From contig JACRCN010000006.1 of the NCBI GenBank assembly GCA_016219005.1, forward strand, positions 1 through 33,119: a stretch of 33,119 nucleotides of DNA, read 5' to 3'. This document shows positions 285-33,119 of the stretch, one piece after another (the stretch's first letter is position 1; each line of letters begins with the position of its first letter). Source of the stretch: Deltaproteobacteria bacterium (GTDB lineage: Bacteria > Desulfobacterota > Desulfobacteria > Desulfobacterales > SpSt-501). The notes beneath the pieces are model-generated. The model worked only from the letters and a program-made list of their open reading frames with translations, was not told where the DNA came from and searched no databases. Position numbers and translations under genes: made by a program.

Positions 285-2684
285 ATGGAAGCAAGAAAGA
301 TCGCCGCGGCAGTGACGGTTTTGGTGCTGGTGCTGAGCCTTGCCGCCTGCGGCGGGCCGGAGGAGAAAAAGGCCAGATTCCTGGCCAAGGCCAAGGAATT
401 ATATAGCAAAGGCGATTACGTCAAGGCACGCCTCGAAGTAAAAAATGCCATCCAGATCGACCCCAAGTACGCCGAGGGCTACCACCTGCTCGGTCTGATC
501 GAGGAAAAGGACGGCAACCTCAAGGGCGCTTTCGGTGCCTTTTCCAAGGCCATCGAGTTGAACCCGGAGCTTACCGCGGCACACGTCGAGATGGGCAAGC
601 TCCTGCTGGTATCGGGTGCCCCCGACAAGGCCTTTGAAAAGGCTCAGGCGGCACTCGCCAGGCAGCCCGCCAACAGCGATGCCCTGATGTTGAAGGGCTC
701 GATTCTCATGGCCCAGAAGAAGCCCAGGGATGCCGCCGCGATTTTCGAGGGCTTGCTGCAAAAAGGAGAAAAAAAGCCCGAGACCTACCTGCTGCTGGCA
801 ATGGCCTACTCCCAGAGCGAAAACCCGTCGCAGGCGGAAAAGACCCTTGCGGAGGGCATTGCCGCCTATCCGGGATATGCGCCGCTGCACCTGGGGCTTG
901 CCCAGTTTTACAGCGGCCTCAAGCAGCCGGACAAGGTCAAGTCCGAGCTTCAGAAGGTAATTCAGCTTGAGCCGGACAAGGCGATCCACAAATTCAACCT
1001 GGCGAATTTCCTGTGGGAGGAGGGCCGCCAGGCCGCCGCCATCGACCTTATTACCGAAACCGTCGCCACCGACGCCGCCAACGAGGGCACCTGCGAAATG
1101 GCCGCCCGGTTTTTCATCTCCAAGAAACAGCTCTACGAAGCGGCCAAGATACTGGACAAAGGCGTTGAAAAGATCCCCGCGAGCTTTAAGCTGAGAATCC
1201 TGCTGGCCGACGTTTTTCTGAACCAGGGCAACCCCTCCAAGGCCATCGAGACTCTCGAAAAATGCCTGAGCTTGAGCAAGGACCCGGGGGATCCGGGGAT
1301 TATTCAGGCCAAGACCGCGCTGACCCGGGTGCACCTGCTGCTGCGGCAGACGGCGAGAGCCGAGGCCTACGTCAACCAGGTCCTTGAAGCCAACCCCAAA
1401 AGCGTCGAAGGCCACCTCGCCAAAGGCGACATTTATATGGTGAAGGGAGAAGGCCAGAACGCCGTTGCCGAATTCCGCACCGTCGTGGGCGAGCAGCCCC
1501 AGTTCATTGCCGGCTATATCCGGTTAGCCTCCGCCCACGTGCTCAACCGCGAGCTCGACCTTGCCGTCCAGATCCTTCAAAACAGTCTGAAGCTCGACCC
1601 CAAGTCCAAGGAAACACTGCAGGCGCTCTCGCGGGTTTACGGACTCAAGAAAGATATGACCGCGGCCGAGGAGCAGTTGCGCAGGATCGTCGATATGGAC
1701 GCCGGCGACATGGCGGCGCGCGCCAACCTGGGCGATTTTCTGGCGGCAAGCGGCAAGACCGCGCAGGCGGAGGCCGCCTACCGGACGATCGTGCAGCATG
1801 CGCCCCAGTCCCCCCTCGGCTACCTCAAGTTAAGCCGCCTGTATCGGATGCAGAACAAACCCAGGGAAACGCTGGCGCAGCTGGAGGAGGGCTATCGTCA
1901 GAACCAGGTGTCCGCCGAGCTTCTGACCGAGCTGGTCCAGACCTATATCCAGCAGAAGAAGCACGGTGCCGGCGTTGCCGTGTGCACGAAGCGCATCGAG
2001 GACAATCCGCGCGACATCTTTGCCTACAACCTGCTGGGGTGGGTCTACACCGACATGAAGAACTACCAGGAGGCGGAGGCCGCCTTGAAGAAGGCGGTCG
2101 AAATGCAGCCGCTGTGGCCCGCGCCCCACACCAATCTGGCCAACCTGTACCTGCTCCAGGGCCGCAAGCAGGAGGCGATCGAAAAGCTCCAGGCCGGCAT
2201 CGACGCCAACCCGAAGGATGCCTCGGGTTATCTTACGCTGGCCCTCCTTTTTGAACGCGACAAGGACTATACGAACGCCATGCAGGTGTATGAACGGGCC
2301 CTCAAGGAAAACCCAGGGTTCTGGTTCGCCTCAAACAACCTCGCTTTCCTGATGGCCGAGACAAATGCATCGAAAAGCGGGCTGCAGCGTGCTAAAATGC
2401 TGGTGGAGGAAGCCCTCAAGGCGCGGCCGAACGAAGCCTCCCTGCTGGACACCCTGGGGTGGGTCTATTTCCGCATGGGGGATACCCAGCAGGCGCGAAG
2501 CCTGATCGAGCAGGCCCTCGCCGCCTCCCCCGAAGAAGGCGTGCTGAACTATCACATGGGGGCGGTGCTCGCAAAGCTCGGCCAGAAGGACGAGGCCCGG
2601 GAGAAGCTTGAAAAATCGATGGCCGGCGCGGGCGACTATCCCGGCAAGGCCGATGCGGCCCGATTGCTGAAAGAATTGTCGTAA
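285..2684 (+). CDS. prsT: PrsT-type TPR-repeat lipoprotein of the XrtA/PEP-CTERM polysaccharide system
   Basis: A 799-residue protein with a lipoprotein signal: a charged start, a hydrophobic stretch and lipobox LAAC with Cys22. The rest is a continuous array of tetratricopeptide repeats of about 34 residues (e.g. A-x-Y-x-L-L-G...A-x-A-x-x-x-P patterns near residues 40-110, 590-660 and 670-760). The TPR lipoprotein of XrtA-associated EPS loci (family recalled as TIGR02917) has this form and is usually somewhat longer. It is expected to be anchored in the envelope and to act as an assembly scaffold for polysaccharide export. The start is supported by AAAGGAG at 273-279. It heads a + strand block of six export genes; the next gene begins 20 bases after its stop. 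The IS end directly upstream may have replaced its native promoter region. Confidence 0.85.
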   Translation: MEARKIAAAVTVLVLVLSLAACGGPEEKKARFLAKAKELYSKGDYVKARLEVKNAIQIDPKYAEGYHLLGLIEEKDGNLKGAFGAFSKAIELNPELTAAHVEMGKLLLVSGAPDKAFEKAQAALARQPANSDALMLKGSILMAQKKPRDAAAIFEGLLQKGEKKPETYLLLAMAYSQSENPSQAEKTLAEGIAAYPGYAPLHLGLAQFYSGLKQPDKVKSELQKVIQLEPDKAIHKFNLANFLWEEGRQAAAIDLITETVATDAANEGTCEMAARFFISKKQLYEAAKILDKGVEKIPASFKLRILLADVFLNQGNPSKAIETLEKCLSLSKDPGDPGIIQAKTALTRVHLLLRQTARAEAYVNQVLEANPKSVEGHLAKGDIYMVKGEGQNAVAEFRTVVGEQPQFIAGYIRLASAHVLNRELDLAVQILQNSLKLDPKSKETLQALSRVYGLKKDMTAAEEQLRRIVDMDAGDMAARANLGDFLAASGKTAQAEAAYRTIVQHAPQSPLGYLKLSRLYRMQNKPRETLAQLEEGYRQNQVSAELLTELVQTYIQQKKHGAGVAVCTKRIEDNPRDIFAYNLLGWVYTDMKNYQEAEAALKKAVEMQPLWPAPHTNLANLYLLQGRKQEAIEKLQAGIDANPKDASGYLTLALLFERDKDYTNAMQVYERALKENPGFWFASNNLAFLMAETNASKSGLQRAKMLVEEALKARPNEASLLDTLGWVYFRMGDTQQARSLIEQALAASPEEGVLNYHMGAVLAKLGQKDEAREKLEKSMAGAGDYPGKADAARLLKELS

Positions 2685-2704
2685 ACGATAACGCGGAGGT
2701 CTGG

Positions 2705-3283
2705 ATGAAGAAGATAATGTGGTTTCTCGTCGCCGTTGCCGTGGGGATCTGCGGCGCGGCAAACCTCCTCGCGGCAGGCGAGCAGGAAGCTTCACCGATT
2801 GCCGATTATGTCATCGGTTTGGGGGACACCCTGACCATTTCGGTTTGGAAGGACGAGTCCCTGACACGCCAGGTGGTGGTGTTGCCCGACGGCAAGATCG
2901 CCTTCCCCTTGGTCGGCCAACTGCCCGCGGCCGGGCGGACGGTAGCCGAGCTCACCAGGGACATGGAGCAGAAGCTCGAACGGTTCGTTCCCGGGGTCAC
3001 CCTGAGTGTGGTCGTGCAGCAGGTGAACAGCCTGATGGTTTACGTGATCGGCCGGGTCAACACCCCGGGCCGCTTCGTGCTCAACTCGGATATAAATGTC
3101 CTGCAGGCGCTTGCCATGGCCGGCGGGCTCAACCCGTTTGCCAAGCGCGGGGACATCCGGATCTTCAGGGAGGCCGGCGGGGGAACGAAGGTCATGTATT
3201 TCGACTACGACAAGGTTTCCGTCGGCGAGGAGGTCAAGCAGAACATAAAGCTCAGGCGCGGGGATGTCATCGTGGTGCCTTAG
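2705..3283 (+). CDS. Short Wza-like polysaccharide export protein, XrtA type
   Basis: A 192-residue exported protein with a signal peptide of about 24 residues (cleavage near LLAAG). It has the Poly_export domain near residues 33-105 (YVIGLGDTLTISVW ... VLPDGKIAFPLVG) and one SLBB-like domain near 110-160 (VYVIGRVNTPGRF ... LQALAMAGGLNPFA). It is much shorter than classical Wza (about 380 residues), as is usual for the XrtA-associated exporters (family recalled as TIGR03027). No lipobox is apparent. It would form or gate the outer-membrane/periplasmic part of the export channel. The start is preceded by GGAGGT at 2695-2700. It sits between PrsT and the beta-barrel gene, in what looks like one operon. 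Confidence 0.88.
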   Translation: MKKIMWFLVAVAVGICGAANLLAAGEQEASPIADYVIGLGDTLTISVWKDESLTRQVVVLPDGKIAFPLVGQLPAAGRTVAELTRDMEQKLERFVPGVTLSVVVQQVNSLMVYVIGRVNTPGRFVLNSDINVLQALAMAGGLNPFAKRGDIRIFREAGGGTKVMYFDYDKVSVGEEVKQNIKLRRGDVIVVP

Positions 3284-3353
3284 CGCCGGGGGGGCCGAAG
3301 CCCGACGGCCGCGCTTAACGTCACAACAAGAACGTTTACGGAAAGGAGTTCCC

Positions 3354-4571
3354 GTGGCTCAAAAGTGGAAAGCAGCAGCGGCGCTGATGCTGGTTCTGGC
3401 GGCTGGTACTGCTCCGGCGGACGAGTTCAAGCTGACCCCCAGCGTCGCCGTGAGACAGGAATACAACAGCAACATCTTCTTCGACACCAGCGACGAGAAG
3501 GACAGTTTCATCACCCGGGTAAAACCGGGGCTTGAGCTGCTGAACCGCACCGAGCGGCTGGACCTGCGGCTCGCTGGCTACGTAACCCCTTTCTACTACT
3601 GGGACGAGAGCGACCTGAATTCCGTGGACCAGGACTATAGTGGCCGTGTCAACTACCGGCTGACGCCGCTGGTGACAATCGGCGCGGATGCCGGCGTGCG
3701 CGTGGACCACCAGCCGGACCGGGACCTGCTGACCACCGGCCTTACCTATACCGACAACCGCCGCATCCAACAGCGCTACGGCGGCAAAGCAAGCTGGATG
3801 TTCACCGAGCTGATGTCGGCCTCGGTCGCCTACGGCTACACCCGCGAGGATTGGCGGGGCGTCGATGCGGGCGACGACATCGAGGACTGGGACAGTCACT
3901 CGGTAACCCTGGGGTTGAGCCGCGAGCTCGGGGCCGCCAGGGGCGTCACCGTGGGGCTTTTGAACGCCGGCTGGGCCGAATACGACTACGAAACCTCGAA
4001 GACCGACTACTACTTCGGCACGGTGGGCGTAAAGCACCGCCTGACCGAGATCTTCAATCTCACGGCCGACGTGGGTGCACGGTACACGGACTCCGATTTC
4101 AAGGTCCAGAGCCTGGCGATCGTTCCCCCCGGAGTGCTTGCGGTCATCACCGAGGATGAAAACAGCAGCGGTTGGGGCGGCATCGGACACCTGGCGGTGG
4201 AATACGCGGGGGAAAGGGCGCGCGCGAGCCTTGCGGCCTCCCACGACATCAACGCGGCGAGCGGGACCAGCGGTGTGGTCCAGCGCACGGGGGTAACGTT
4301 TAACGGCGGCTACTTGTGGCTTGAGAAGCTTCGGGTGGGTTTGATTGCCAGCGCCTTCCGCAACAAGTCCGAGAACGAGGAGTTCACGGGCACCGAGATC
4401 AACGAGTACACCTACAATTTCATCCCCAGCCTGCGATGGGAGTTCTACCGGGACGTGACCCTCGAGGCCGGCTACGGCTTCACATACGTGGACGACCGCA
4501 CCGAGGACGGCAACGCCGTGCGCAGCCTTGCCTTCATCCAGCTTGCCTACGGACTGCCGCTCCTGGAGTAG
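3354..4571 (+). CDS. XrtA/PEP-CTERM-associated outer-membrane beta-barrel protein
   Basis: The frame is open from 3264, but GTG at 3354 is the better start: AAAGGAG lies at 3342-3348, and the product then begins MAQKWKAAAALMLVLAAG with signal-peptide cleavage after APA. The mature part (about 380 residues) alternates polar and aromatic residues in short strands (TPSVAVRQEYNSNIFFD, LDLRLAGYVTPFYYW, RWEFYRDVTLEAGYGFTYV), as expected of an outer-membrane beta-barrel. The composition and neighbourhood match the uncharacterised outer-membrane family of XrtA EPS loci (recalled as TIGR03016). It may be the outer-membrane pore that works with the short Wza-like protein just upstream, which lacks a membrane-spanning C-terminus; that role is inference. 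Confidence 0.8.
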   Translation: MAQKWKAAAALMLVLAAGTAPADEFKLTPSVAVRQEYNSNIFFDTSDEKDSFITRVKPGLELLNRTERLDLRLAGYVTPFYYWDESDLNSVDQDYSGRVNYRLTPLVTIGADAGVRVDHQPDRDLLTTGLTYTDNRRIQQRYGGKASWMFTELMSASVAYGYTREDWRGVDAGDDIEDWDSHSVTLGLSRELGAARGVTVGLLNAGWAEYDYETSKTDYYFGTVGVKHRLTEIFNLTADVGARYTDSDFKVQSLAIVPPGVLAVITEDENSSGWGGIGHLAVEYAGERARASLAASHDINAASGTSGVVQRTGVTFNGGYLWLEKLRVGLIASAFRNKSENEEFTGTEINEYTYNFIPSLRWEFYRDVTLEAGYGFTYVDDRTEDGNAVRSLAFIQLAYGLPLLE

Positions 4572-4637
4572 AGGATCGGTCAATCCCGCGCAAGGGCGCC
4601 CAAACCCTGACCGGTTTTCGGGAGAAAAGCGAAAAGG

Positions 4638-4651
4638 AGCGCTCGAGCGCT
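4638..4651. promoter_or_regulatory. 14-base perfect palindrome, possible operator
   Basis: AGCGCTCGAGCGCT is self-complementary over its whole length. It lies in the 235-base gap between the beta-barrel gene and the chain-length gene, four bases upstream of a candidate -35 box. Its placement suggests a binding site for a dimeric regulator, but no second copy was seen in the window, and a chance palindrome in G+C-rich DNA cannot be excluded. Confidence 0.3.
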
Positions 4652-4655
4652 AAAG

Positions 4656-4685
4656 TTTAACCATAAGCCGGAAACATGCTAATAT
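4656..4685 (+). promoter_or_regulatory. Candidate sigma70-type promoter for the chain-length/kinase/ATPase genes
   Basis: TTTAAC (4656-4661), an 18-base spacer and TAATAT (4680-4685) form a plausible -35/-10 pair in the 235-base gap ahead of the chain-length gene at 4807. It would give a leader of roughly 115 bases and let the three inner genes be expressed apart from prsT. The -35 box is a weak match. Confidence 0.3.
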
Positions 4686-4806
4686 TCTAACGAGCGCGGG
4701 AAATTGAAACGAAGGGGTCAACAAGCCCGCCCTCGCCCGGCGGCCCGCATCGCACCGGGTCCCCCATTGCCGCCGGCGGCTGAACCTTCGATCTTAAGGT
4801 GATAAA

Positions 4807-6381
4807 ATGGAACAAAACACCATGACGCCGATGGAGCTTCTGTCAATCCTAAGGCGGCGACGCATGAGTCTTGTGGTTCCGGCTCTCGCCATCATCGCGC
4901 TGAGCATAGCGGTCGCACTGCTTCTTCCTTCGATATACAAGTCCACCGCCACGATCCTGATCGAGGAGCAGGAGATCCCCACGGACTTCGTCATGACCAC
5001 GGTGACGAGCTATGCCGAGCAGCGCATCCAGCAGCTGACCCAGCGCATCATGAGCTTCACGCGGTTGATGGAGATCATAAACCAGTTCAACCTGTACGCG
5101 GACATGAAGGAGCGCTACACGACCGAAGAGATCGTGGACCAGATGCGCAAGGACACCGAGCTGAAACCCGTGAGTGCGGAGATCATCGACCGCCGCACGG
5201 GTCGGCCCACCGCGGCCACGATCGCTTTTACCTTGTCCTATCAAGGCAAGAACGCGAACACGGTGCTGCAGGTGTCCAATATACTGACCTCGCTCTACCT
5301 TGAGGAGAACCTCAAGGTGCGCGCCAAACAGGCCGAGGAGACCGCGGGGTTCCTGGATTCCGAGATGTCGCGGGTAAAGCAGGAGCTGGCTGAAATCGAA
5401 GCGCGGATTTCGGAATTCAAGAGGGTTCACATGAACGCGCTTCCGGAGGTAATGCAGCTCAATCTGCAGACCCTCTCCGGTATCGAGCGCAGTATGGAGG
5501 TGACGGGTGAACAACTGCGCGGCCAAAGGGAACGCGAGGGGTATCTGCAGGCCCAGCTCGCCGGTATCAAACCGTATACCGAAAAGGAAGACGAGCTGGC
5601 GAGCAAGAAGCGCATTGAAGAGCTCAAGGTTCAGTTGGTGGCTCTGAACCAGCGCTTCTCGGAAGAGCATCCTGATGTAAAGAAGACCCGGGCCGAAATT
5701 GCCCAGCTGGAGGAGCGCCTGACCGGAATCGGCTCCAAGGGCGGCAGCGGATCGCCCGACAATCCGGCCTACATCACCCTGTCGGCCCAACTCGCCAGCG
5801 CGCGGGTCGAGGTGCAGGGTCTCCAGCGGCAGATCGAGAAATTAAGCGCGGAAGCCGCCGAATACCGCCGCAGGATCGTCGCCACCCCCAAGGTCGAGGA
5901 AGAGTACAACGGTCTCCTCGCCGCGCGCACCAGCACCCAGGCCAAGGTCAACGACCTGATGCGCAAGCTGATGGAGGCGCGCGTGTCCCACGGCCTGGAG
6001 AAGGAACAGATGGGTGAGCGCTTCACCCTGATCGATCCGCCGCGGCTGCCCGAGAAGCCCTTCAAGCCCAACCGCCTGGCGATTATGCTGATCGGGCTGG
6101 TGCTCGGGATAGGGGCCGGGGTCGGCTTTGCCGCCCTGCGGGAGTTCAGTGACGATTCGGTGCACACGGCCGAGCAGCTCGAAGCCTCAACCCAGTTCCC
6201 GGTGCTGGCCGGCATTCCGGTCATCGAGACCGCCCGGGACATCCGGCGCAAAAGGGGCCGGCGCATGGTTTACGCTCTCAGCACGGCGGGAGCATTGGCT
6301 GCGGGTATACTGGTGTTTCACTTTTTCGTGATGGACCTGGATGTCTTCTGGGCGAAGCTTGCCCGCAAGATGCCGCTTTAG
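4807..6381 (+). CDS. XrtA-system polysaccharide chain-length determinant (Wzz/PCP-2-like)
   Basis: A 524-residue inner-membrane protein. A Wzz domain starts at the N-terminus (MTPMELLSILRRRR) with a transmembrane helix near 21-40. A long periplasmic coiled coil spans roughly residues 170-400. A proline-rich motif (PPRLPEKPFKPNR) precedes a second helix near 424-443, and a third hydrophobic segment lies at 488-509. This layout matches the chain-length family of XrtA loci (recalled as TIGR03007), which lacks a fused kinase domain; the kinase is the next gene. It should set polymer length and link the inner-membrane synthesis machinery to the exporter. AAGGTGA at 4796-4802 supports the start. 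The extra C-terminal helix ends in a basic cytoplasmic tail that could contact the kinase (inference). Confidence 0.88.
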   Translation: MEQNTMTPMELLSILRRRRMSLVVPALAIIALSIAVALLLPSIYKSTATILIEEQEIPTDFVMTTVTSYAEQRIQQLTQRIMSFTRLMEIINQFNLYADMKERYTTEEIVDQMRKDTELKPVSAEIIDRRTGRPTAATIAFTLSYQGKNANTVLQVSNILTSLYLEENLKVRAKQAEETAGFLDSEMSRVKQELAEIEARISEFKRVHMNALPEVMQLNLQTLSGIERSMEVTGEQLRGQREREGYLQAQLAGIKPYTEKEDELASKKRIEELKVQLVALNQRFSEEHPDVKKTRAEIAQLEERLTGIGSKGGSGSPDNPAYITLSAQLASARVEVQGLQRQIEKLSAEAAEYRRRIVATPKVEEEYNGLLAARTSTQAKVNDLMRKLMEARVSHGLEKEQMGERFTLIDPPRLPEKPFKPNRLAIMLIGLVLGIGAGVGFAALREFSDDSVHTAEQLEASTQFPVLAGIPVIETARDIRRKRGRRMVYALSTAGALAAGILVFHFFVMDLDVFWAKLARKMPL

Positions 6382-6439
6382 GATAGAAGCCATCGCGAAA
6401 ACAGCAGGGGTTGATGTTTGCAAAGGGAGCAGGAACCTG

Positions 6440-7258
6440 ATGAATTTGAGAAAAGCATTGGACAAGGCCAGGCAGATGCGGGGGGAAAGTCTTCCCCGAC
6501 CCCTGACGTCGGGAAAGCCCGTGGTGATCGCCCGCTCGCCCGATCGGCAGTGGAAGCCGCCGGAGTACTCCCAGTCCCGCAGCATGCACGTCCAGCCGGC
6601 GCAGCTCATGGAGAACCGCTGTGTGTGCATCGAGCCCGATGCCGCCGAGCTCGAGGCATACAAGGTGCTGCGAACCCGCATCCAGATGGCAACCAAAACA
6701 AAAGGCTGGAACACCATAATGATCACCAGCCCCAACGCCGGCGATGGGAAGACCCTGACCGCCATCAACCTGGCGCTCACCTTTGCCAAGGCCTACAACC
6801 AGACCGTGATGCTGGTCGACTGCGACCTCAGGCGGCAGAATATCCACCGTGTGCTGGGGATTGAGAGCGGTGCGGGGATAGTGGACTTCCTGGTGGACGA
6901 CAAGCCCCTGAACGAGTTCATTATCTGGCCCGGCATAGAGAAGCTCTCCTTGATCTCGGGGGGACGTTCCATCCAGAACAGCGCAGAGGTTATTGGCTCG
7001 GCCCGCATGAAGTCGCTGATCCAGGAGCTGAAAACCCGGTACGATGACCGTTTTATCATTATCGACGCCCCGCCGATTCTGAGCGGAGCCGACACCATGG
7101 CCCTGGCGCCTTGCGTGGACTGCATTCTGATGGTAGTCAAGGAAAGCCGCACCCGCATGCACGAGATCAAGAAGGCGATGGACATGATCCCAAAGGATAA
7201 ATTCCTGGGGTATGTCATGAACCATCAGCGGAAAGCCGGGAAAGCTTACTACTACTAG
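6440..7258 (+). CDS. Tyrosine autokinase (BY-kinase), XrtA type
   Basis: The frame opens at 6341, but ATG at 6440, preceded by AGGAA, gives a 272-residue product starting MNLRKALDKA and is preferred. It has the P-loop SPNAGDGKT (97-105), Walker A' MLVDCDLRR (124-132), Walker B IIIDAPP (206-212) and a C-terminal tyrosine cluster AYYY. These are the hallmarks of bacterial tyrosine kinases that autophosphorylate on their C-terminal tyrosines and control Wzz-dependent polymerisation (XrtA subfamily recalled as TIGR03018). As in Gram-positive systems, the kinase is a separate polypeptide from the membrane activator, here the gene just upstream. All catalytic motifs are intact, unlike the second kinase-like gene at 25338-26093. 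Confidence 0.9.
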   Translation: MNLRKALDKARQMRGESLPRPLTSGKPVVIARSPDRQWKPPEYSQSRSMHVQPAQLMENRCVCIEPDAAELEAYKVLRTRIQMATKTKGWNTIMITSPNAGDGKTLTAINLALTFAKAYNQTVMLVDCDLRRQNIHRVLGIESGAGIVDFLVDDKPLNEFIIWPGIEKLSLISGGRSIQNSAEVIGSARMKSLIQELKTRYDDRFIIIDAPPILSGADTMALAPCVDCILMVVKESRTRMHEIKKAMDMIPKDKFLGYVMNHQRKAGKAYYY

Positions 7259-7323
7259 GACCGCGAGCTTCAGCGGGGGTCAATGCGAAAAAGAGGTTTT
7301 AACGTCAGCCGATCGGTGCCGCG

Positions 7324-8463
7324 ATGTATGAATCCTTCTATGGTTTAAGGGAAAAGCCCTTCCAGATCGTTCCGAGCCCGAATTATCTTTACAAGAGCGA
7401 GAAGCATCAGAACGCGCTGACCTACCTGGAATACGGGCTGACGGAAAATGTCGGGTTCATCCTTCTGACCGGCGAAGTCGGGTCCGGGAAGACGACACTG
7501 GTGCAATATATCTTGAGCCAGCTCGGCGACAACACGGTGGCGGCGGTCATTTTCAACTCCAATCTGTCCGCCGGTGAGCTCTTGCGCATGATCCTGACGC
7601 AGTTTGAGCTGAAACCCGGTGATGACAAGACCGACAACCTGAATGCACTGAACCACTATCTGATCCAGATGTACGGCTCAGGCAAACAGGCCCTGCTGAT
7701 CGTCGATGAAGCGCAGAACCTGACGCCGGACGCCATAGAAGAAGTGCGGATGCTCTCCAACCTTCAAAGCGATAATCACACCCTCCTGCAGATCGTGCTG
7801 GTAGGGCAGCCGGAGCTGAAGGCGGAGCTTGAGCACCCGTCCATGCGGCAGGTCGCGCAGCGTATAGCGGTAAGATATCACCTGACAGGCTTGAACCGGG
7901 AAGACACGGGCCGGTATATTTCGTATCGATTGCAAACGGCCGGGGGAAAGCCGGATCTTTTCACGGAGGCCGCCGTCGATCTGATTTACGATGTGTCAAA
8001 GGGGATCCCCCGTTCCATCAACCTCGCCTGCCAGGCGGCCTTGGTCTATGGTTATGCGGAGGAATCCCGGAAGATCAGCCAGGATATCGTCAGGCAGATC
8101 ATGGCCGACAACCTCGGGGTGGGGTTGGAATCAGTCAAACAGCAGACGGCGGCCGATAATCCCGGAAATCCCGGCGACCCCCACCCCAATCCGTCAAAAA
8201 ACGGCTACAAGGAACGACTGGACGCCATCGAGCAAACCGTCCAAGGCTTGCAGGCAGCGGTTGAAAACCGTTTGGGTGTGATCGAAAGGAGCCTGAACAG
8301 CCAACCGAGCGAAACCGTGCGAAAGCTGACCGAGTTGCTGCAGCAGGAGCAGGCGCGGAACCAGGCCCTGTTGCGCAAGCATGCCCATCTTGAAATGCAG
8401 TATCTGCATCAGCAGGATATTATCGACAAGGCGCGGAGGAAATACCGGCAGAATAAGGCTTAA
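7324..8463 (+). CDS. XrtA-associated ExeA-like AAA ATPase
   Basis: A 379-residue cytoplasmic ATPase beginning MYESFYGLREKPF, the typical opening of the ExeA/GspA family. Walker A is GEVGSGKTT (50-58) and Walker B LLIVDEAQNL (124-133); the sensor region follows near 150-190. The AAA_22 module is followed by a glutamine-rich coiled-coil tail (about 290-379). It is the last gene of the + strand export block and fits the ATPase family of XrtA EPS loci (recalled as TIGR03015). Its exact function is unknown; the family resembles ATPases of transposition (TniB/MuB type) and of type II secretion assembly. The Shine-Dalgarno sequence is poor, and no better start is visible. A terminator follows directly. 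Confidence 0.88.
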   Translation: MYESFYGLREKPFQIVPSPNYLYKSEKHQNALTYLEYGLTENVGFILLTGEVGSGKTTLVQYILSQLGDNTVAAVIFNSNLSAGELLRMILTQFELKPGDDKTDNLNALNHYLIQMYGSGKQALLIVDEAQNLTPDAIEEVRMLSNLQSDNHTLLQIVLVGQPELKAELEHPSMRQVAQRIAVRYHLTGLNREDTGRYISYRLQTAGGKPDLFTEAAVDLIYDVSKGIPRSINLACQAALVYGYAEESRKISQDIVRQIMADNLGVGLESVKQQTAADNPGNPGDPHPNPSKNGYKERLDAIEQTVQGLQAAVENRLGVIERSLNSQPSETVRKLTELLQQEQARNQALLRKHAHLEMQYLHQQDIIDKARRKYRQNKA

Positions 8464-8483
8464 AAAGCGTAAACAGAATACTG

Positions 8484-8523
8484 AAAGGCGCGGATCGCTC
8501 AAGTCGGTCCGCGCCTTTTTTTT
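8484..8523 (+). terminator. Rho-independent terminator, probably bidirectional
   Basis: An 11-base perfect stem (AAAGGCGCGGA at 8484-8494 with TCCGCGCCTTT at 8508-8518), a 13-base loop and a run of eight T (8516-8523) follow the ATPase stop by about 20 bases. On the - strand the same stem ends in only three T, so it may also stop transcripts from the PEGA gene at lower efficiency. Confidence 0.92.
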
Positions 8524-8740
8524 GTCCTCTGAGCGAATGGGCCAAGGGCCTTCAATTTGCGCCGGTATGAGTTTCGGAGCGGCTGGGATTAAAGAGGTTG
8601 ATGCCTTTTGACCGCAGGCGCACCAAGTCAAGGCGCTCGCTGATTCAGAGTAACGGACGACCGCCATCTACCCCATGGCCATGACGTGCGGTGGCATGAG
8701 TGGGTTGGATGATGCTTTTGAAGCGTGGCATCCTGAGGAA
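8524..8740. other. Intergenic region between convergent operons
   Basis: About 217 bases between the terminator and the end of the PEGA gene. Open frames crossing it are short and have no convincing ribosome binding site. Apart from the terminator, nothing was recognised. Confidence 0.6.
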
Positions 8741-9220
8741 TCAATAGATCGGACCTCGGGGGTTCATGGGCCAATAGTATGGATCGCTCTTGTAGGTCTT
8801 CCCGGCGCCAGTCGGACCTTGCTCAAGCTCGGGGGCTTTTCCGGATGGCTGAGGCTCCTTCACGATTTCGCGCGGCGTTTGAGCGCTTTCGGGGATTTCG
8901 ATAAAAGACCCCTTGAACCAGCTTATGGTGGTGGTTTTCCCGGCCGCGAGGTGGACCTCCGTATTGGAATCGCCGATGCGCAGCAGATGGGCGCCGGAAA
9001 CGAATTTGGCTGCGAAAACCGGGGTCTTTCCGATGACGTTGCCGTCCACCCGCACCTCCATACCGGGAGGCTCGCTGACAACTCGCAAGATGCCGCTTTC
9101 CTCGGCGTCGCCACGGAGGCCGCGTGTCGGCTCAATGAGTTGAGCATCCAGGCGGACGGCATAGGGTAAACACCATACGCCTGCCAGGAGAAGGATGAGA
9201 AATGGCTTTTTGCAGTTCAT
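8741..9220 (-). CDS. Secreted PEGA-domain protein
   Basis: A 159-residue protein with an N-terminal signal peptide (hydrophobic residues 6-20, cleavage near RLDAQ). A PEGA-like surface domain lies at about 44-100, with the pattern ILRVVSEPPGMEVRVDGNVIG then KTPV and a closing beta-strand. PEGA domains occur in surface layer and envelope proteins and are thought to bind envelope partners. The last 55 residues are rich in Pro, Glu and Gly. It follows the polysaccharide export lipoprotein gene by 28 bases on the same strand and is probably the last gene of that operon. A role as an accessory of the exporter is inferred from position only. Confidence 0.72.
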   Translation of the reverse strand: MNCKKPFLILLLAGVWCLPYAVRLDAQLIEPTRGLRGDAEESGILRVVSEPPGMEVRVDGNVIGKTPVFAAKFVSGAHLLRIGDSNTEVHLAAGKTTTISWFKGSFIEIPESAQTPREIVKEPQPSGKAPELEQGPTGAGKTYKSDPYYWPMNPRGPIY

Positions 9221-9248
9221 CTTTCAAAGGCTCGGGAAGTCAAAGGGG

Positions 9249-9974
9249 TTAGTCGTTCTTGTCACCGTGAAGCTCCCATGTGAATCCCAAACTCACACCC
9301 CGGAAAAGAAACAGCTGCTCGATGTATTGGTTCACGAACTGGTTGGCCTTGGCGATGGGCGACTTTGGAACGTAAACCACATCGCTTGGTTGCAGCTTGA
9401 AATCCTGAGCATTCGTGCTGCCGTCAAGAACCCGGTTCAAATCCACCTGCAGCGGGACGGGGCGATTGTCCGGTCCTTTTCGGATTACTACCGTTTCGCT
9501 GGGTTGGGCGGTGTTTTTGAATCCGCCGGCCTGCATCACCGCCTGGAGCGCAGTCAGCCCCGTCGGCATGGCTATCAACCCTTGCTGGCCCACCTCGCCG
9601 CCCACAAAGACCTGCTGTCCCGCAAACGATCTGACGATTACGGTGATGACGGGCTTTTTCAGCTCGCGGGAATATCGTTCCGTGAGCAGATCGTCCACCT
9701 GCCGCGGCTCCAAGCCCGCGACGAGCACTTCGTCCACCAATTGCAGGGAAATGTACCCGTCGGGTCGGACGCTGACGGATTCGTTCAGTTCCGGGTTGTA
9801 AAAGAATTTTATGTCCAGGCTGTCCCCCGGTTGGACGAGATAGGGCGGAACCAATTGCTGCATTTGCGCAGGGGCTCCGGCGACCGGAGGAGTGATTGAA
9901 TTGGAATGGCTGCACCCGAAGATTACCACCAGGATCCCGACCGCCTGTGCCCAACGAATCAGTTTCGGCTTCAT
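9249..9974 (-). CDS. Wza-like polysaccharide export lipoprotein
   Basis: The frame reaches up to 10049, but ATG at 9974 is preceded by AAAAGGGGG and gives a clean lipoprotein signal with Cys21 (VIFGC). The 241-residue product has a Poly_export domain near 45-120 (YLVQPGDSLDIKFFYNPEL ... RPDGYISLQLV), an SLBB domain near 125-175 (VFVGGEVGQQGLIAM ... LQAVMQAGGF), and a C-terminal helix (AKANQFVNQYIEQLF) followed by a short aromatic tail. This is the outer-membrane exporter component of Wzx/Wzy-type pathways. It is the only Wza-like gene near the - strand Wzx/Wzy locus, so it probably serves that locus although it sits in a separate operon. Confidence 0.87.
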   Translation of the reverse strand: MKPKLIRWAQAVGILVVIFGCSHSNSITPPVAGAPAQMQQLVPPYLVQPGDSLDIKFFYNPELNESVSVRPDGYISLQLVDEVLVAGLEPRQVDDLLTERYSRELKKPVITVIVRSFAGQQVFVGGEVGQQGLIAMPTGLTALQAVMQAGGFKNTAQPSETVVIRKGPDNRPVPLQVDLNRVLDGSTNAQDFKLQPSDVVYVPKSPIAKANQFVNQYIEQLFLFRGVSLGFTWELHGDKND

Positions 9975-10060
9975 CGTAAGCCCCCTTTTAAGATATGTGT
10001 TGCCTGAGAAGGAATCTCGTAGCATCGCTTCCGAGTACTCTGCTTTCATTTCCAGCGCTA

Positions 10061-28382: not shown

Positions 28383-30182
28383 TCAGCGGATAATTGTTCC
28401 CGTTTTATCGAGGCGATTTTTTATCTTTGGATTGAAAAGGAATTGCGATTTGCCCAGTTTCATTTTTAGATAGGTGGCAAGATTGATTTTAGAGTTGCTA
28501 ATATGCAATTTCTTGCGAATGCTTTTTCGGTGGGTTTTAACCGTGAGGTCTGATAGATGAAGCAGGCGGCTTATTTCGAGCGTGCTGAAACCATTTCTGA
28601 TCATGATCGCTACACGCATCTGCGTTTTGGACAGCGCCGCTATCACCCCGGAACTCATGGGCGCATCTGGGGTCAAATCCTCCAGGTAGCTTCTGATGAT
28701 ATCGATCTGAACTCGATGCTTTTCCGGGATATTGAAACTTTCCAGCTCCTCTAAGGCCGGCAGAATCCGCGACGTTACGGTTTGCGTGATCTGGTGAACC
28801 AAATGCTGGCCCTTTCTGTCAATGTTCCGGGCCATTATCGACAGAGCCTTGTTTGTGTGAACCAGTTCCCGGTTGACCCGTTCGAGGTTGAGCTTATACC
28901 GATCGAGTTCTTCCTGCTTTTGAGCGAGCATTTTGGTGGCCACCTCCAGCCTCTGAGGGTACTGTTGCTGGCTGGTTTTCATCTGTCCGTCGGCGCCACT
29001 CGGAGATTTGCGAATCTTATTTCTGCATGGTGCTTCTCTGAATACAATTATAGCTGCTGTTCGTCCTTGCCAGGCAGCCGAGGAAGCGTAAACATCTATC
29101 GGCCAGATGTCGCCATCTTTCCGAAGCAGTTCGGTTTCGAAACGCTCCGCGCTGATTTCGCCGCACAGCCTGCGTTTCAAAGTATCACTCTGGAAATTGT
29201 GCTGTTGCGCGTCCAGCACGAACCGGGCGGGAGCTATCTGAAGCAGTTCATCGACTTCATAGCCCGATAGCTGGCTCGCACGCCGATTTGCGAAGATGCA
29301 CGAGTCTGAAAGCTCATATGCAATGACAACCCCTTCCCCTGCGTTCTCGATTATCGTCCTGAAACTCTCCTCACTCAGGCACAACGACTCGTCGCCTAAC
29401 GCCGGCGCCGTGCTATCCGAAATACGCATCGCCACCTGCTGCGGCGAGGGGCGGAATGCGTGGATCTCTGCGTATTTCTTGTTTCCTCTATAAAAATACT
29501 TGAGCCTCGCGCCCTCTCCGTGGACCGCAATTCGTTTGAGCATATCCAGCCAATCAGATTCCAATCCCGGCAGTATCTCTGTCAGCCTTCGGCCCAGCAT
29601 GGTGTCTATGCTGATCCCCTTAAACTCTTCAAAAGCCGAGTTGGCATCTACCAAACGGAATTGCGAGAAATAGCCTGGTTCAATCGCTATCAGTTCAAAA
29701 AGGGCAAATGCGCCGGCCCCGGCATCGCCTTGCCTGTTCTCATTTTCCATGATGTTTTGAGGAAAACCGTCAGCGCTTTGCACAGCAAGCGGGCCTCCGG
29801 TCATCAACCAATATTCCTTCAGCGATCCGTTTTCTTCGAAAATGGCATTGGTCATCCATGTCCGCTGCCGGATTCCGCCTCCGGGCAGCATCAACCGCAC
29901 CCCTACTTTAGAAGCGGAACGCCGTGGGTTGAGCTGACGCAACGAGCTATGAAGCACGGGCAGGTCTTCTTCCAGTACGAAAGGAAATTTTTTCGCACCG
30001 AGAAGCTCTTGAGGTTTCAAACCGAAAAAACAACAGCAGGGATCGTTGATGAATGTCAAACAGGAGGACGAGTTCAACCGGCATATCCATTTCCGATTCA
30101 GTGGATCATTTTGCTGTTGACCCTGCTGGCTGAAGACTCCTTCATTACAATTTCCTTGTGGGTTAGAATAGTATTCTACCAT
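28383..30182 (-). CDS. Multi-PAS LuxR-type transcriptional regulator
   Basis: A 599-residue cytoplasmic regulator. Three PAS-like domains lie at about 30-140, 160-255 and 270-385 (the last with TIIENAGEGVVIAYE and RRASQLSGYEVDEL). A coiled coil follows (about 405-455), and a LuxR/GerE helix-turn-helix at 517-575 (LSKTQMRVAIMIRNGFSTLEISRLL, then TVKTHRKSIRKKL). No kinase or receiver domain is present, so the PAS sensors are coupled straight to DNA binding. A cysteine cluster DPCCCFF in the first PAS could respond to redox or bind a cofactor (inference). GGAGGT precedes the ATG. It is the most upstream gene of the - strand polysaccharide locus and the likely regulator of it. Confidence 0.87.
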   Translation of the reverse strand: MVEYYSNPQGNCNEGVFSQQGQQQNDPLNRKWICRLNSSSCLTFINDPCCCFFGLKPQELLGAKKFPFVLEEDLPVLHSSLRQLNPRRSASKVGVRLMLPGGGIRQRTWMTNAIFEENGSLKEYWLMTGGPLAVQSADGFPQNIMENENRQGDAGAGAFALFELIAIEPGYFSQFRLVDANSAFEEFKGISIDTMLGRRLTEILPGLESDWLDMLKRIAVHGEGARLKYFYRGNKKYAEIHAFRPSPQQVAMRISDSTAPALGDESLCLSEESFRTIIENAGEGVVIAYELSDSCIFANRRASQLSGYEVDELLQIAPARFVLDAQQHNFQSDTLKRRLCGEISAERFETELLRKDGDIWPIDVYASSAAWQGRTAAIIVFREAPCRNKIRKSPSGADGQMKTSQQQYPQRLEVATKMLAQKQEELDRYKLNLERVNRELVHTNKALSIMARNIDRKGQHLVHQITQTVTSRILPALEELESFNIPEKHRVQIDIIRSYLEDLTPDAPMSSGVIAALSKTQMRVAIMIRNGFSTLEISRLLHLSDLTVKTHRKSIRKKLHISNSKINLATYLKMKLGKSQFLFNPKIKNRLDKTGTIIR

Positions 30183-31452: not shown

Positions 31453-33119
31453 ATGCCTCCCAAGCGCCCATCAAAAAAATCTTCGATCAAGCTCAGCCCT
31501 GAAAACCGGGAAAGAATTTCTGCGGCTGCACTTGAGCACCCAAGCCTCGGCGTTAAACGACTTGTATCCATACTCCAAGGCGAGGGGGTCGCAGCAACCG
31601 AAGGCACCGTCCGCAGTGTTCTCAAGAAACAAGGCCTTCAAACGTGTGAACTTCGGCTCGAGCTCCTGGAAGAACGCCACCTGAACCTGTCCTTGGCCCT
31701 CTCGGAAGAGCAGGAACAGGCGCTGTTTGGCTTTAATCCCTGCCTGCGCGAGCGCCACCTGGATTGCCATCGACCCGGAGGGCTTCTCGTCCAGGATGCC
31801 GTCGATCTCGGCAAGCTGAAAGCCATCGGGCAGACGTTCCTGCACGCCGCCATCGACCCGAGCTGCTGCCTTGCTTTTGCGACACTCGCGGTATCCACGG
31901 ATCCGGCGGCTTCCATTGCCCTGCTGAAGGACCAGGCACTTGTGTTCTACCGGAGGGAGGCGATAGCGGTACAGAGGGTCATGGCCGGCAAGGGGGTCGT
32001 TTCCGGCGCCGGTGTCGATCCTGAATACGAAAAATTCCTGGAAAGCCAGGGGATAGCGCTCACGCTGCCGCCGGCAGGCGATCAGCCCCTGAACGGCTTC
32101 ATCGAGCGTTTCGGGCGATCGGTGCGCAAGGAGTTTCTGGCCGAAGCCCTGAAGTCGCGGGCCTATCACGATCTCGGGGCCCTTCAGTCGGGTTTCGACG
32201 ACTGGCTTGAAAGATTCAACCGTGAAGCCTTGCTTGCCGGCTACCCAACCTTGGGCCGGGCCCCGTTGGACGCATTCGGAGCCGTCAGGGCTGCCGAAAC
32301 CCCCCGGGAAAGAACGGGGTACATCCCCCCGTCGGAATCTGAACCTGTTACGGTCCCGCCTCCGTCGGAAATTGCGGCTGCGCCGGTCCAGCCCGAACCA
32401 CGCGCCCAGAAAACATACGAATGGACGCCCGGCTTCGAAATCTGGGGGTTTCGCGCCGTTAACACTGCGCTGGTCTGCCTCATATTCTACTTCGGGTGGG
32501 TGGTCGTCTCGATGATTCTCGACGGCCCCCGCATGGAAAAGCATCCCGGAGCAACTCCATCGGTTCAACCGGTGGCGGCACCGGGTTCCGGCCGGACGCA
32601 GAAGAAGGCCTCGCTGCTGGCAGAGTACCGGGTGGTTTGGGACAGGAATCTTTTCGGCGTGTCCCGGCTCGCCGAGAAGGCCGCCATGCCCGAGAAGATC
32701 GATGTCGACAAGGTTGCATTGGCTGGGACAGATGTCGGCCTCAAACTCATTGGAACGGTGGTAGCGAGCGACCCGAAGTTGAACTACGCCGTCATAGATG
32801 TGGCCTCAACTCGCAACCAGGGAATCTATCGCGAGAAAGAGCGGGTGGGTAAGTCGGTGATAAGATTAATCCTCCGAAACGCCGTAATCATCGAAACGGA
32901 GGACGGCAGCCGCAAGCGATTGAGCACGGACGAGGAGGCTGCAAAGAGCCCGAAGTCAGGGGGGGAGGGGACCGGGCCGCCTGCAGGGTCAGCCGCCGCT
33001 TCCTTCAACCCGGATGACATCCAGGGCGACGGCAGCACCTTTCAAGTCCCGCGCGATGAAGTCCCCGCATCTCCTCCGGATGTTCAACGCGTTATAGAGG
33101 AGCTGAAACTTGCTCCCCA
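31453..33119 (+). CDS. gspC: Integrase-core-like/HTH domain fused to type II secretion protein GspC (no stop in window)
   Basis: From ATG 31453 (in-frame TAA at 31444) the frame stays open for 555 codons to the window edge. Residues 14-70 form an HTH like that of IS481/IS3 transposases (HPSLGVKRLV ... TEGTVRSVLKKQGLQT). Residues 107-275 align with an RNase H-like integrase core: LLVQDAVDLGKLKAIG, AAIDPSCCLAFATL, LNGFIERFGRSVRKEFL and GYPTLGRAPLDAF. Of the DDE triad Asp115 and Glu218 remain; the middle Asp is replaced by Gly179 (MAGKG for the usual T-D-N-G). A Pro-rich linker (285-325) leads to a single transmembrane helix (336-355) and a GspC homology domain (390-500: YRVVWDRNLFGV, LIGTVVASDPKLNYAVID), with a GspC-like tail near the edge. 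GspC links the inner-membrane platform to the secretin. No ATG lies between codon 177 and the helix. The Shine-Dalgarno site is weak. Confidence 0.82.
   Translation, partial: MPPKRPSKKSSIKLSPENRERISAAALEHPSLGVKRLVSILQGEGVAATEGTVRSVLKKQGLQTCELRLELLEERHLNLSLALSEEQEQALFGFNPCLRERHLDCHRPGGLLVQDAVDLGKLKAIGQTFLHAAIDPSCCLAFATLAVSTDPAASIALLKDQALVFYRREAIAVQRVMAGKGVVSGAGVDPEYEKFLESQGIALTLPPAGDQPLNGFIERFGRSVRKEFLAEALKSRAYHDLGALQSGFDDWLERFNREALLAGYPTLGRAPLDAFGAVRAAETPRERTGYIPPSESEPVTVPPPSEIAAAPVQPEPRAQKTYEWTPGFEIWGFRAVNTALVCLIFYFGWVVVSMILDGPRMEKHPGATPSVQPVAAPGSGRTQKKASLLAEYRVVWDRNLFGVSRLAEKAAMPEKIDVDKVALAGTDVGLKLIGTVVASDPKLNYAVIDVASTRNQGIYREKERVGKSVIRLILRNAVIIETEDGSRKRLSTDEEAAKSPKSGGEGTGPPAGSAAASFNPDDIQGDGSTFQVPRDEVPASPPDVQRVIEELKLAP

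Follow-up and report, generated by a model that had tools for sequence, protein, structure and literature searches.

An accessory GspC fused to a transposase-derived helix–turn–helix domain in a deltaproteobacterium and its relatives

Introduction

GspC proteins of the type II secretion system (T2SS), such as PulC, OutC and EpsC, have a single transmembrane helix, a homology region and a PDZ domain, and little is understood of how the secretion machine selects its cargo or keeps export in step with expression. A 2001 study by Bouley is said to have dealt with the PDZ domain of OutC, and one by Mehta from 2006 reportedly dealt with the multicopper protein OmpB of Geobacter and an atypical T2SS. 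Helix–turn–helix (HTH) domains are also found in front of a membrane helix in ToxR-like regulators, where they are of the OmpR/PhoB-type winged kind (Trans_reg_C), and the HTH of RodZ is a protein–protein scaffold for MreB.

In this study, we revisited a gene at the end of a 33,119-nt stretch of DNA (the window), in which a transposase-like N-terminus precedes a GspC-like part. Labels beginning with G, C and L denote genomes, contigs and loci, respectively. All genome counts take in the genome at the centre of the search concerned, and gsp, tat and GspA-like names given without a family search are readings of the sequences.

Results

Architecture of the fusion gene

The gene occupies a + strand frame (31453–33117) that starts with ATG, is open for 555 amino acids and runs past the end of the window (Table 1). 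In the source genome (5.24 Mb in 106 contigs, with 4.67% contamination) the window makes up contig C82. Its final 141 nt recur unchanged as the first 141 nt of C49, and when the two contigs are joined the frame encodes a protein of 632 amino acids. An earlier note had read the frame as an uninterrupted series of IS481-like HTH, integrase core, Pro-rich linker, transmembrane helix and GspC domain, and both domain searches and the further copies described below bear this out: a transposase-derived N-terminus stands in frame on GspC, with one transmembrane helix. NCBIfam identified in the window part an IS481 transposase over residues 4–260 (E 1.7e-27) and GspC_delta over residues 333–516 (E 5e-13), and Pfam identified T2SSC (7.5e-5), rve_3 (1.5e-4) and HTH_32 (1.9e-3), every Pfam and NCBIfam score of this copy being under its curated cut-off. 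Besides the maximum at the transmembrane helix, the hydropathy profile has two weaker peaks (1.57 and 1.44). In a single-sequence AlphaFold2 model the HTH alone folds confidently, as three helices (block pLDDT 63–78); the model is poor everywhere outside the HTH, and its helix at 327–356, at the position of the transmembrane segment, is of low confidence. Beyond the hydropathy, we infer a topology in which the HTH is cytoplasmic and the GspC region and PDZ domain are periplasmic.

Table 1. Features of the fusion gene (copy C82) in the window
Feature	Position	Strand	Basis or remark
HTH–integrase–TM–GspC fusion gene (copy C82)	31453..33119	+	77 further codons in contig C49
IS481-type HTH, residues 15–74	31495..31674	+	HMM, 88 bits (model of 13 units including C82); common part of the accessory-GspC clade
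Integrase (RNase H-like) core, residues 76–285	31678..32307	+	Alignment with 6 IS481 transposases
Pro-rich linker, residues 286–330	32308..32442	+	Sequence reading
Single transmembrane helix, residues ~338–356	32464..32520	+	Hydropathy maximum 2.36
GspC homology region, RNLF ... VGLKLIGT stretch, residues 390–495	32620..32937	+	Pfam, NCBIfam and alignment
Periplasmic linker and PDZ start	32938..33119	+	PDZ mostly in contig C49, L008:about 131–373; PDZ domain match made on the other members

The absence of ATG from the roughly 160 codons before the helix, as pointed out previously, is correct: Met occurs at residues 1 and 177 and then at 354, inside the helix. Between Met 177 and the helix, the possible internal starts are one GTG (224) and three TTG codons (260, 267 and 272).

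The GspC part

The transmembrane helix and the GspC homology region behind it are both present in the fusion copies. Against Pfam T2SSC the copies on C82 and C60 score 23 and 25.7 bits, below the cut-off of 27, and the members in G284, G225, G326 and G776 score 33.6–45.4, above it. With the NCBIfam equivalogs NF041515 (cut-off 150) and TIGR01713 (cut-off 101.6), the window part of the C82 copy scores 49.5 and 11 bits and six other members score 69.7–145.2 and 22.3–98, respectively, all below the cut-offs. The C82 protein has 337 residues before the helix, compared with 11 in the canonical GspC of the same genome, and the seven HTH-bearing members measured have 171–365. Among the best 60 of 93 PDB chains, OutC was matched over its PDZ domain (5.4e-8), as were the PDZ domains of PulC and EpsC; a PDZ profile of the four copies of this genome matched DegP at 1.2e-4 versus GspC at 3.3e-3. 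We count it against the explanation favoured below that the match of the PDZ domain to HtrA-type proteases is at least as good as that to GspC.

Copies in the genome and their neighbours

A search of the genome led to seven places, namely the C82 copy, its continuation on C49, a second copy on C49, one place on C96, two parts on C60 and one place on C74. The second full fusion (C49, 59% identity to the C82 copy) and the third (C96, 46%) have the same domain order, and the fourth copy (C60) keeps the HTH, transmembrane and GspC parts and is without the integrase core. On C74 a plain GspC is encoded inside a T2SS operon with the order gspC, D, E, N, M, L, K, J, I, H, then gspG and gspF, the names being readings of the sequences except for the GspC match. 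This operon has its own canonical gspC, and the fusions are therefore accessory GspCs; the C82 fusion as a member of a gsp operon was rejected. Of the earlier reading, the fused N-terminus and the helix thus stand, and the GspC identity has to be narrowed to that of a paralogue, with the gspC of the T2SS operon elsewhere. The note had proposed looking for gspD to the right of the fusion; a gene for an HU-pentapeptide protein and then the second fusion copy are found there instead, and neither gspD nor gspE lies beside the fusion copies in the stretches of this genome read.

The HU-pentapeptide gene (L008:392–1234, contig C49) starts 18 nt past the window copy, and the second fusion follows 51 nt later. 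Pfam identifies Bac_DNA_binding (2.6e-15) and Pentapeptide (1.4e-39) in its product. The same joining of an HU/IHF-like domain to pentapeptide repeats is encoded at L071:16365–17270 in G284, on the other strand from the accessory gene, and both genes adjoin an HTH–GspC gene. The C96 fusion is followed by what is left of the pentapeptide part, decayed and with one stop, which suggests that fusion and HU-pentapeptide gene were duplicated as a pair. This protein is a possible partner or DNA mimic. As an obligatory partner it was rejected: in the matches listed from 25 genomes, a single hit contains both domains in G284 (the query), the source genome and G244, where the match spans residues 1–170, and G244 gave no GspC match at E <= 1e-25.

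With Pfam CCP_MauG (E <= 0.001), the whole genome yielded two genes (three hits, two in one frame), both on the same strand and just upstream of a fusion, with gaps of 427 nt (C96) and 414 nt (C60). One of the three Cu-oxidase_2 genes of the genome lies 770 nt downstream of the C49 copy. Export of these MauG proteins and multicopper oxidases is a reading of their hydrophobic N-termini. For three loci placed at random, the chance that both MauG genes fall within 1 kb is ~5e-6, given uniform placement and a category chosen post hoc. The gaps to the MauG and multicopper oxidase genes span 414–770 nt and the one on C60 holds a hairpin, so that co-transcription with the redox genes is no more than possible, a point against the explanation favoured below.

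In L008:1–4000, which takes in the whole second copy and only the end of the window copy, the repeats comprise an imperfect inverted pair of 16 nt and two direct pairs of the same length, and the placement of none of them resembles that of IS ends. No 9-mer is shared by three or more of the upstream regions of seven members, and the palindromes in front of the C82 copy, such as ATGGCCGGCCAT at -52, are peculiar to it and could be due to chance. A tblastn search of 72,556 plasmid records with the C49 copy matched 478, none covering 80% of the query; nine of the best 10 of these 478 matches are annotated as IS481 transposase, and the top one (36%, with 37% covered) is without annotation. Plasmid carriage was rejected on this result.

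Elsewhere in the window, positions 285–10049 hold exopolysaccharide genes of XrtA/PEP-CTERM type; a PrsT-like TPR protein scores above its cut-off, and three others (chain-length determinant, pepcterm_ATPase and export protein) fall short of theirs. Left of the fusion, the first large gene (28386–30182, - strand) encodes a PAS protein with a LuxR-like C-terminal HTH. A stand-alone GspA-like ATPase is encoded on contig C54 (L125:7421–8785) and has 51% identity to the one beside the four-HTH gene of G326; the gene next to it encodes a short protein that ends in a PEP-CTERM-like way. In the source genome, neither of the two closest GspA-like genes (C54 and C3) adjoins a fusion.

Distribution among relatives

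In 96 genomes (the source and 95 relatives), five of six congeners each gave a single match that stopped short of the N-terminal half, and the sixth gave none. The accessory clade was found in at least seven of 389 genomes of the class (the source genome, G284, G225, G326, G321, G059 and G152) and in at least two of 395 genomes of the phylum (the source genome and G521, which belongs to another class), the counts being lower bounds because at most three candidates per genome were scored. It occurs in two of six genomes of the family of G284 and in one of eight of that of G326. At least seven further genomes in the phylum search (E <= 1e-45) had plain frames of GspC length (291–319 amino acids). 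Within the class of G521 (55 genomes, E <= 1e-55) eight genomes passed; G521 and G776 have the accessory type, and the other seven hits (six further genomes and G776) are plain GspCs beside a secretin-like frame. Another GspC is present in seven of the nine accessory-bearing genomes (the source genome, G284, G225, G326, G059, G152 and G776); a second one was not found in G321 (70% complete) or G521 at the limits used. Two narrow pattern scans of genome contigs, from which near genomes may be left out, gave 142 matches for the N-terminal part and 28 for a four-copy alignment, none confirmed.

The conserved part of the accessory GspCs is the HTH and not the integrase. Tandem HTH units precede the Pro-rich stretch in G284 (two), G225 (three) and G326 (four), with Pfam HTH_32 above its cut-off, and G776, a complete member outside the building set of the HTH model, has one (86 bits). 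In the G059 gene the unit is decayed (12.9 bits, E 0.0068), and none was found in G152 with the HMM of 13 fusion units. At contig edges, the G521 gene begins inside the HTH and the G321 gene after it; these two are outside the ten complete accessory genes read, eight of which have an HTH (the four copies of the source genome, G284, G225, G326 and G776). Orthologues thus do not always start just before the helix. No integrase core was seen in the relatives, and only three copies in the source genome carry one. The order that the earlier note had proposed seeking in relatives therefore recurs as HTH–TM–GspC and without the core, and its emphasis on an integrase–GspC fusion is apt for those three copies, the conserved novelty being the HTH, present one to four times in relatives.

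The accessory genes of the relatives have varied neighbours. In the single-contig genome G284 the copy lies between gspF and gspG inside a T2SS operon that has a canonical gspC too. In G326, one strand carries the four-HTH gspC, an AAA ATPase with a transmembrane segment and a SPOR domain, and the small (Tat signal) and large subunits of a NiFe hydrogenase. We call this ATPase GspA-like; its best NCBIfam name, XrtA/PEP-CTERM-associated ATPase, and a weak TniB match (E 0.0073) are both below cut-off. The hydrogenase (L074:6843–9971) could be secreted, and its large subunit has an extra N-terminal stretch of ~150 residues. Beside the G225 gene, the opposite strand encodes a hydrogenase maturation protease; a hydrogenase remnant (L043:52–654) is also present, in which the start of a small subunit is apparently joined to the end of a large one, by internal deletion or as an assembly chimera. 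In G152, genes for a multicopper oxidase (its twin-arginine start being a reading of the sequence) and a small ORF, tatA and the accessory gspC follow on one strand. In G059 tatA lies upstream of the accessory gspC, and the neighbours in G321, G521 and G776 are genes for a GspA-like ATPase, a cytochrome b561 and a DsbA-like protein, respectively. An exported redox enzyme, a category formed after the first neighbours had been seen, is thus encoded beside six of 11 loci (C82/C49, C96, C60, G326, G225 as a remnant, and G152) and not next door in the stretch seen at the other five (G284, G321, G059, G521 and G776).

Phylogeny of the GspC part and the HTH

In a tree of 73 GspC parts, the 11 HTH or orphan rows and G152 lie on one side of a branch (SH-aLRT 98), so that an accessory clade of 12 rows stands apart from 61 other GspCs, the canonical one of the source genome among them. 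The clade together with five plain GspCs of the family of G521 received 96, and the four copies of the source genome group together with 99. This tree is without the G781 row, and the G152 branch is long (2.18) and its placement unsure. A 67-row tree groups the 11 HTH or orphan rows with 99; both trees are quick ones with SH-aLRT support only.

The HMM built from the 13 fusion HTH units scores those units at 82–101 bits and seven transposases of relatives at 22–53. In a tree of 60 columns one branch (100/99) splits the 13 fusion units from the seven transposase units, the latter being the nearest found by profile searches. This grouping, together with the single GspC clade, supports one capture event, and an IS481-type HTH was probably captured once. 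The sole N-terminal match among the best 60 of 93 PDB chains is the DNA-binding domain of the Sleeping Beauty transposase (E 3.2e-4), and the Pfam types in the members are HTH_32, HTH_21 and the Tc3 transposase HTH; the OmpR/PhoB-type winged HTH is absent. All 13 units have Arg at HTH columns 22 and 54, and 11 of the 13 have Lys or Arg at columns 44 and 45; the net charge is about zero for several units and -1 for that of C82. Retention and multiplication of an HTH with these invariant Arg residues suggest that DNA binding was kept.

The core retains D115 and E218, and the second catalytic Asp is replaced by Gly (residue 179 in C82) in all three core-bearing copies, as aligned with six IS481 transposases of related genomes. 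The DDE triad, complete in IS481 transposases, is incomplete in all three copies, and the core appears to be dead. These copies are also without the first HTH of the six transposases. In three copies the order of HTH and core follows that of the transposase collinearly; for this reason we take the core to be ancestral and lost elsewhere, although it may instead have been gained later.

Conservation of the N-terminal half

We compared the C82 and C49 copies with our own Nei–Gojobori script (Table 2), other pairs of copies being near saturation in places. In its degree of conservation the N-terminal half resembles the GspC half and differs from the periplasmic linkers. The dN/dS ratios of the HTH (0.28) and core (0.29) are low, but so are those of the unconserved linker before the PDZ domain (0.31) and the Pro-rich linker (0.43); the identity pattern is therefore better evidence than the ratios, which alone are blunt. 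A conserved N-terminus makes an internal start unlikely, and the earlier statement that a separate short GspC is improbable agrees with its conservation in copies and relatives.

Table 2. Divergence between the C82 and C49 copies by segment
Segment	dN	dS	Amino acid identity
HTH	0.43	1.53	55%
Integrase core	0.21	0.73	68%
Pro-rich linker	0.35	0.81	57%
TM	0.21	0.36	66%
Periplasmic linker after helix	0.72	0.81	23%
GspC homology region	0.19	1.02	69%
Linker before PDZ	0.84	2.71	21%
PDZ	0.47	2.48	42%

Discussion

The explanation that we favour is that an accessory GspC of the T2SS captured the HTH end of an IS481-type transposase, probably once. The protein would span the inner membrane, with the HTH (and the dead core in three copies of the source genome) in the cytoplasm and the GspC region and PDZ domain in the periplasm. 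The periplasmic part may engage the secretin and one specific folded cargo, typically the exported redox enzyme of a neighbouring gene; a GspC encoded beside a cargo-like gene is plausibly dedicated to that cargo. From the membrane the HTH would bind DNA, and cargo or secretion status could in this way be coupled to transcription of the cargo locus, as in a ToxR-like one-component regulator. That these proteins are accessory GspCs for exported redox enzymes, with the HTH as a DNA-binding ToxR-like regulator or as a tether, is a reading we hold tentatively, at somewhat short of an even chance. Against it weigh the lack of a 9-mer common to three or more of the seven upstream regions, the near-neutral charge of several HTH units, the five loci at which no exported redox enzyme was seen next door, GspC scores under the equivalog cut-offs, the bluntness of the dN/dS control and a structural model that is poor outside the HTH. 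A bolder form of it, in which the secretion subunit is itself a membrane-tethered DNA-binding regulator whose one to four domesticated HTHs read DNA while its GspC/PDZ part monitors or loads redox cargo, so that export and expression are coupled, is possible if doubtful; the HU-pentapeptide protein beside some copies would then shape the bound DNA.

A cargo-dedicated GspC could also use its HTH as a protein scaffold, for example for GspL, GspE or a GspA-like ATPase, and not for binding DNA. A role beside the GspE/GspL motor, as put forward in the earlier note, is possible: such an HTH would sit at the cytoplasmic face with GspL and GspE, its repeats could give avidity for a protein, and several units are near-neutral in net charge; the GspA-like ATPase, which is related to transposition ATPases, is a neighbour in G326 and G321, and the G326 protein has the weak TniB match. 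However, basic HTH positions are conserved, the family from which the domain stems binds DNA, and the closest GspA-like genes of the source genome are not beside the fusions, and we consider the scaffold unlikely. The opposite simplification, a membrane-bound regulator or DNA tether outside secretion, for which the GspC-type periplasmic domains are a sensor and nothing more, would suit the position of the copies in the source genome, away from gsp genes in the stretches read, the linkage to redox genes, the companion HU-pentapeptide DNA-binding protein in the source genome and G284, and a PDZ domain as near to HtrA sensors as to GspC. Against this, the G284 copy lies within a T2SS operon, few parts of the protein are as well conserved as the GspC homology region, and the sister group consists of GspCs encoded before the secretin gene in the family of G521; we rate this reading as slightly less likely than the scaffold.

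Two more sceptical explanations fare worse. The transposase part might be an untranslated or useless relic, with a plain GspC starting inside at the GTG or one of the TTG codons before the helix, which would agree with a core that has lost one catalytic residue and with the decayed HTH of G059. Three copies are open, however, the HTH and core are far more similar between C82 and C49 (with dN/dS ~0.28) than the periplasmic linkers are, and the HTH is kept in C60 without the core and multiplied in relatives, so that a relic is very improbable. An artefact of assembly, binning or sequencing could be suspected from a gene that ends at a contig end in a fragmented genome with some contamination; yet a sequencing error joining two frames, raised earlier as a possible objection, is ruled out by independent copies with identical domain order, a relative exists in the single-contig genome G284, and we regard the chance of any such artefact as negligible. 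Tetranucleotide profiles of the four loci agree with each other at 0.88–0.95 and with the first T2SS stretch of C74 at 0.85–0.93; those of G284, G225 and G773 agree with C49 and C74 at 0.70–0.78, and G284 and G059 reach 0.87 and 0.91 with C82. With foreign stretches reaching 0.91, the measure is not sharp and binning is not settled by it.

If the favoured explanation is true, a cargo-facing GspC part and a domain of DNA-binding type are joined in one chain and encoded near a likely cargo gene, which would make a coupling of export to expression testable. The fusion is also an example of a domesticated transposase whose HTH survived and multiplied and whose catalytic part is dead or gone, inside a membrane protein of a secretion system. 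Both halves are known, and their combination and its spread appear to be new as far as seen; the earlier claim that no GspC with such an N-terminus had been described agrees with the open-access literature, in which we found no description of such a protein, subscription papers being mostly outside that body of work.

Compared with known systems, the fusion shares with GspC proteins of the PulC/OutC/EpsC kind the single transmembrane helix, the homology region and the PDZ domain, but differs from them by one or more transposase-derived HTHs before the helix, by the location of the copies in the source genome outside the gsp operon and by scores below those of the equivalogs. With the IS481 family transposases (NF033577) it shares their second HTH, and three copies also share the integrase core in collinear order, whereas the first HTH is missing, the second Asp is Gly and the whole is joined to a membrane protein, the relatives of the fusion keeping HTHs only. 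ToxR/CadC-type regulators likewise have an HTH, a linker, one transmembrane helix and a predicted periplasmic part, and on hydropathy and domain order the fusion has the HTH–TM–periplasmic order of ToxR-like proteins; in contrast to theirs, however, its HTH is of transposase type and sometimes tandem, and its periplasmic part is a component of a secretion system.
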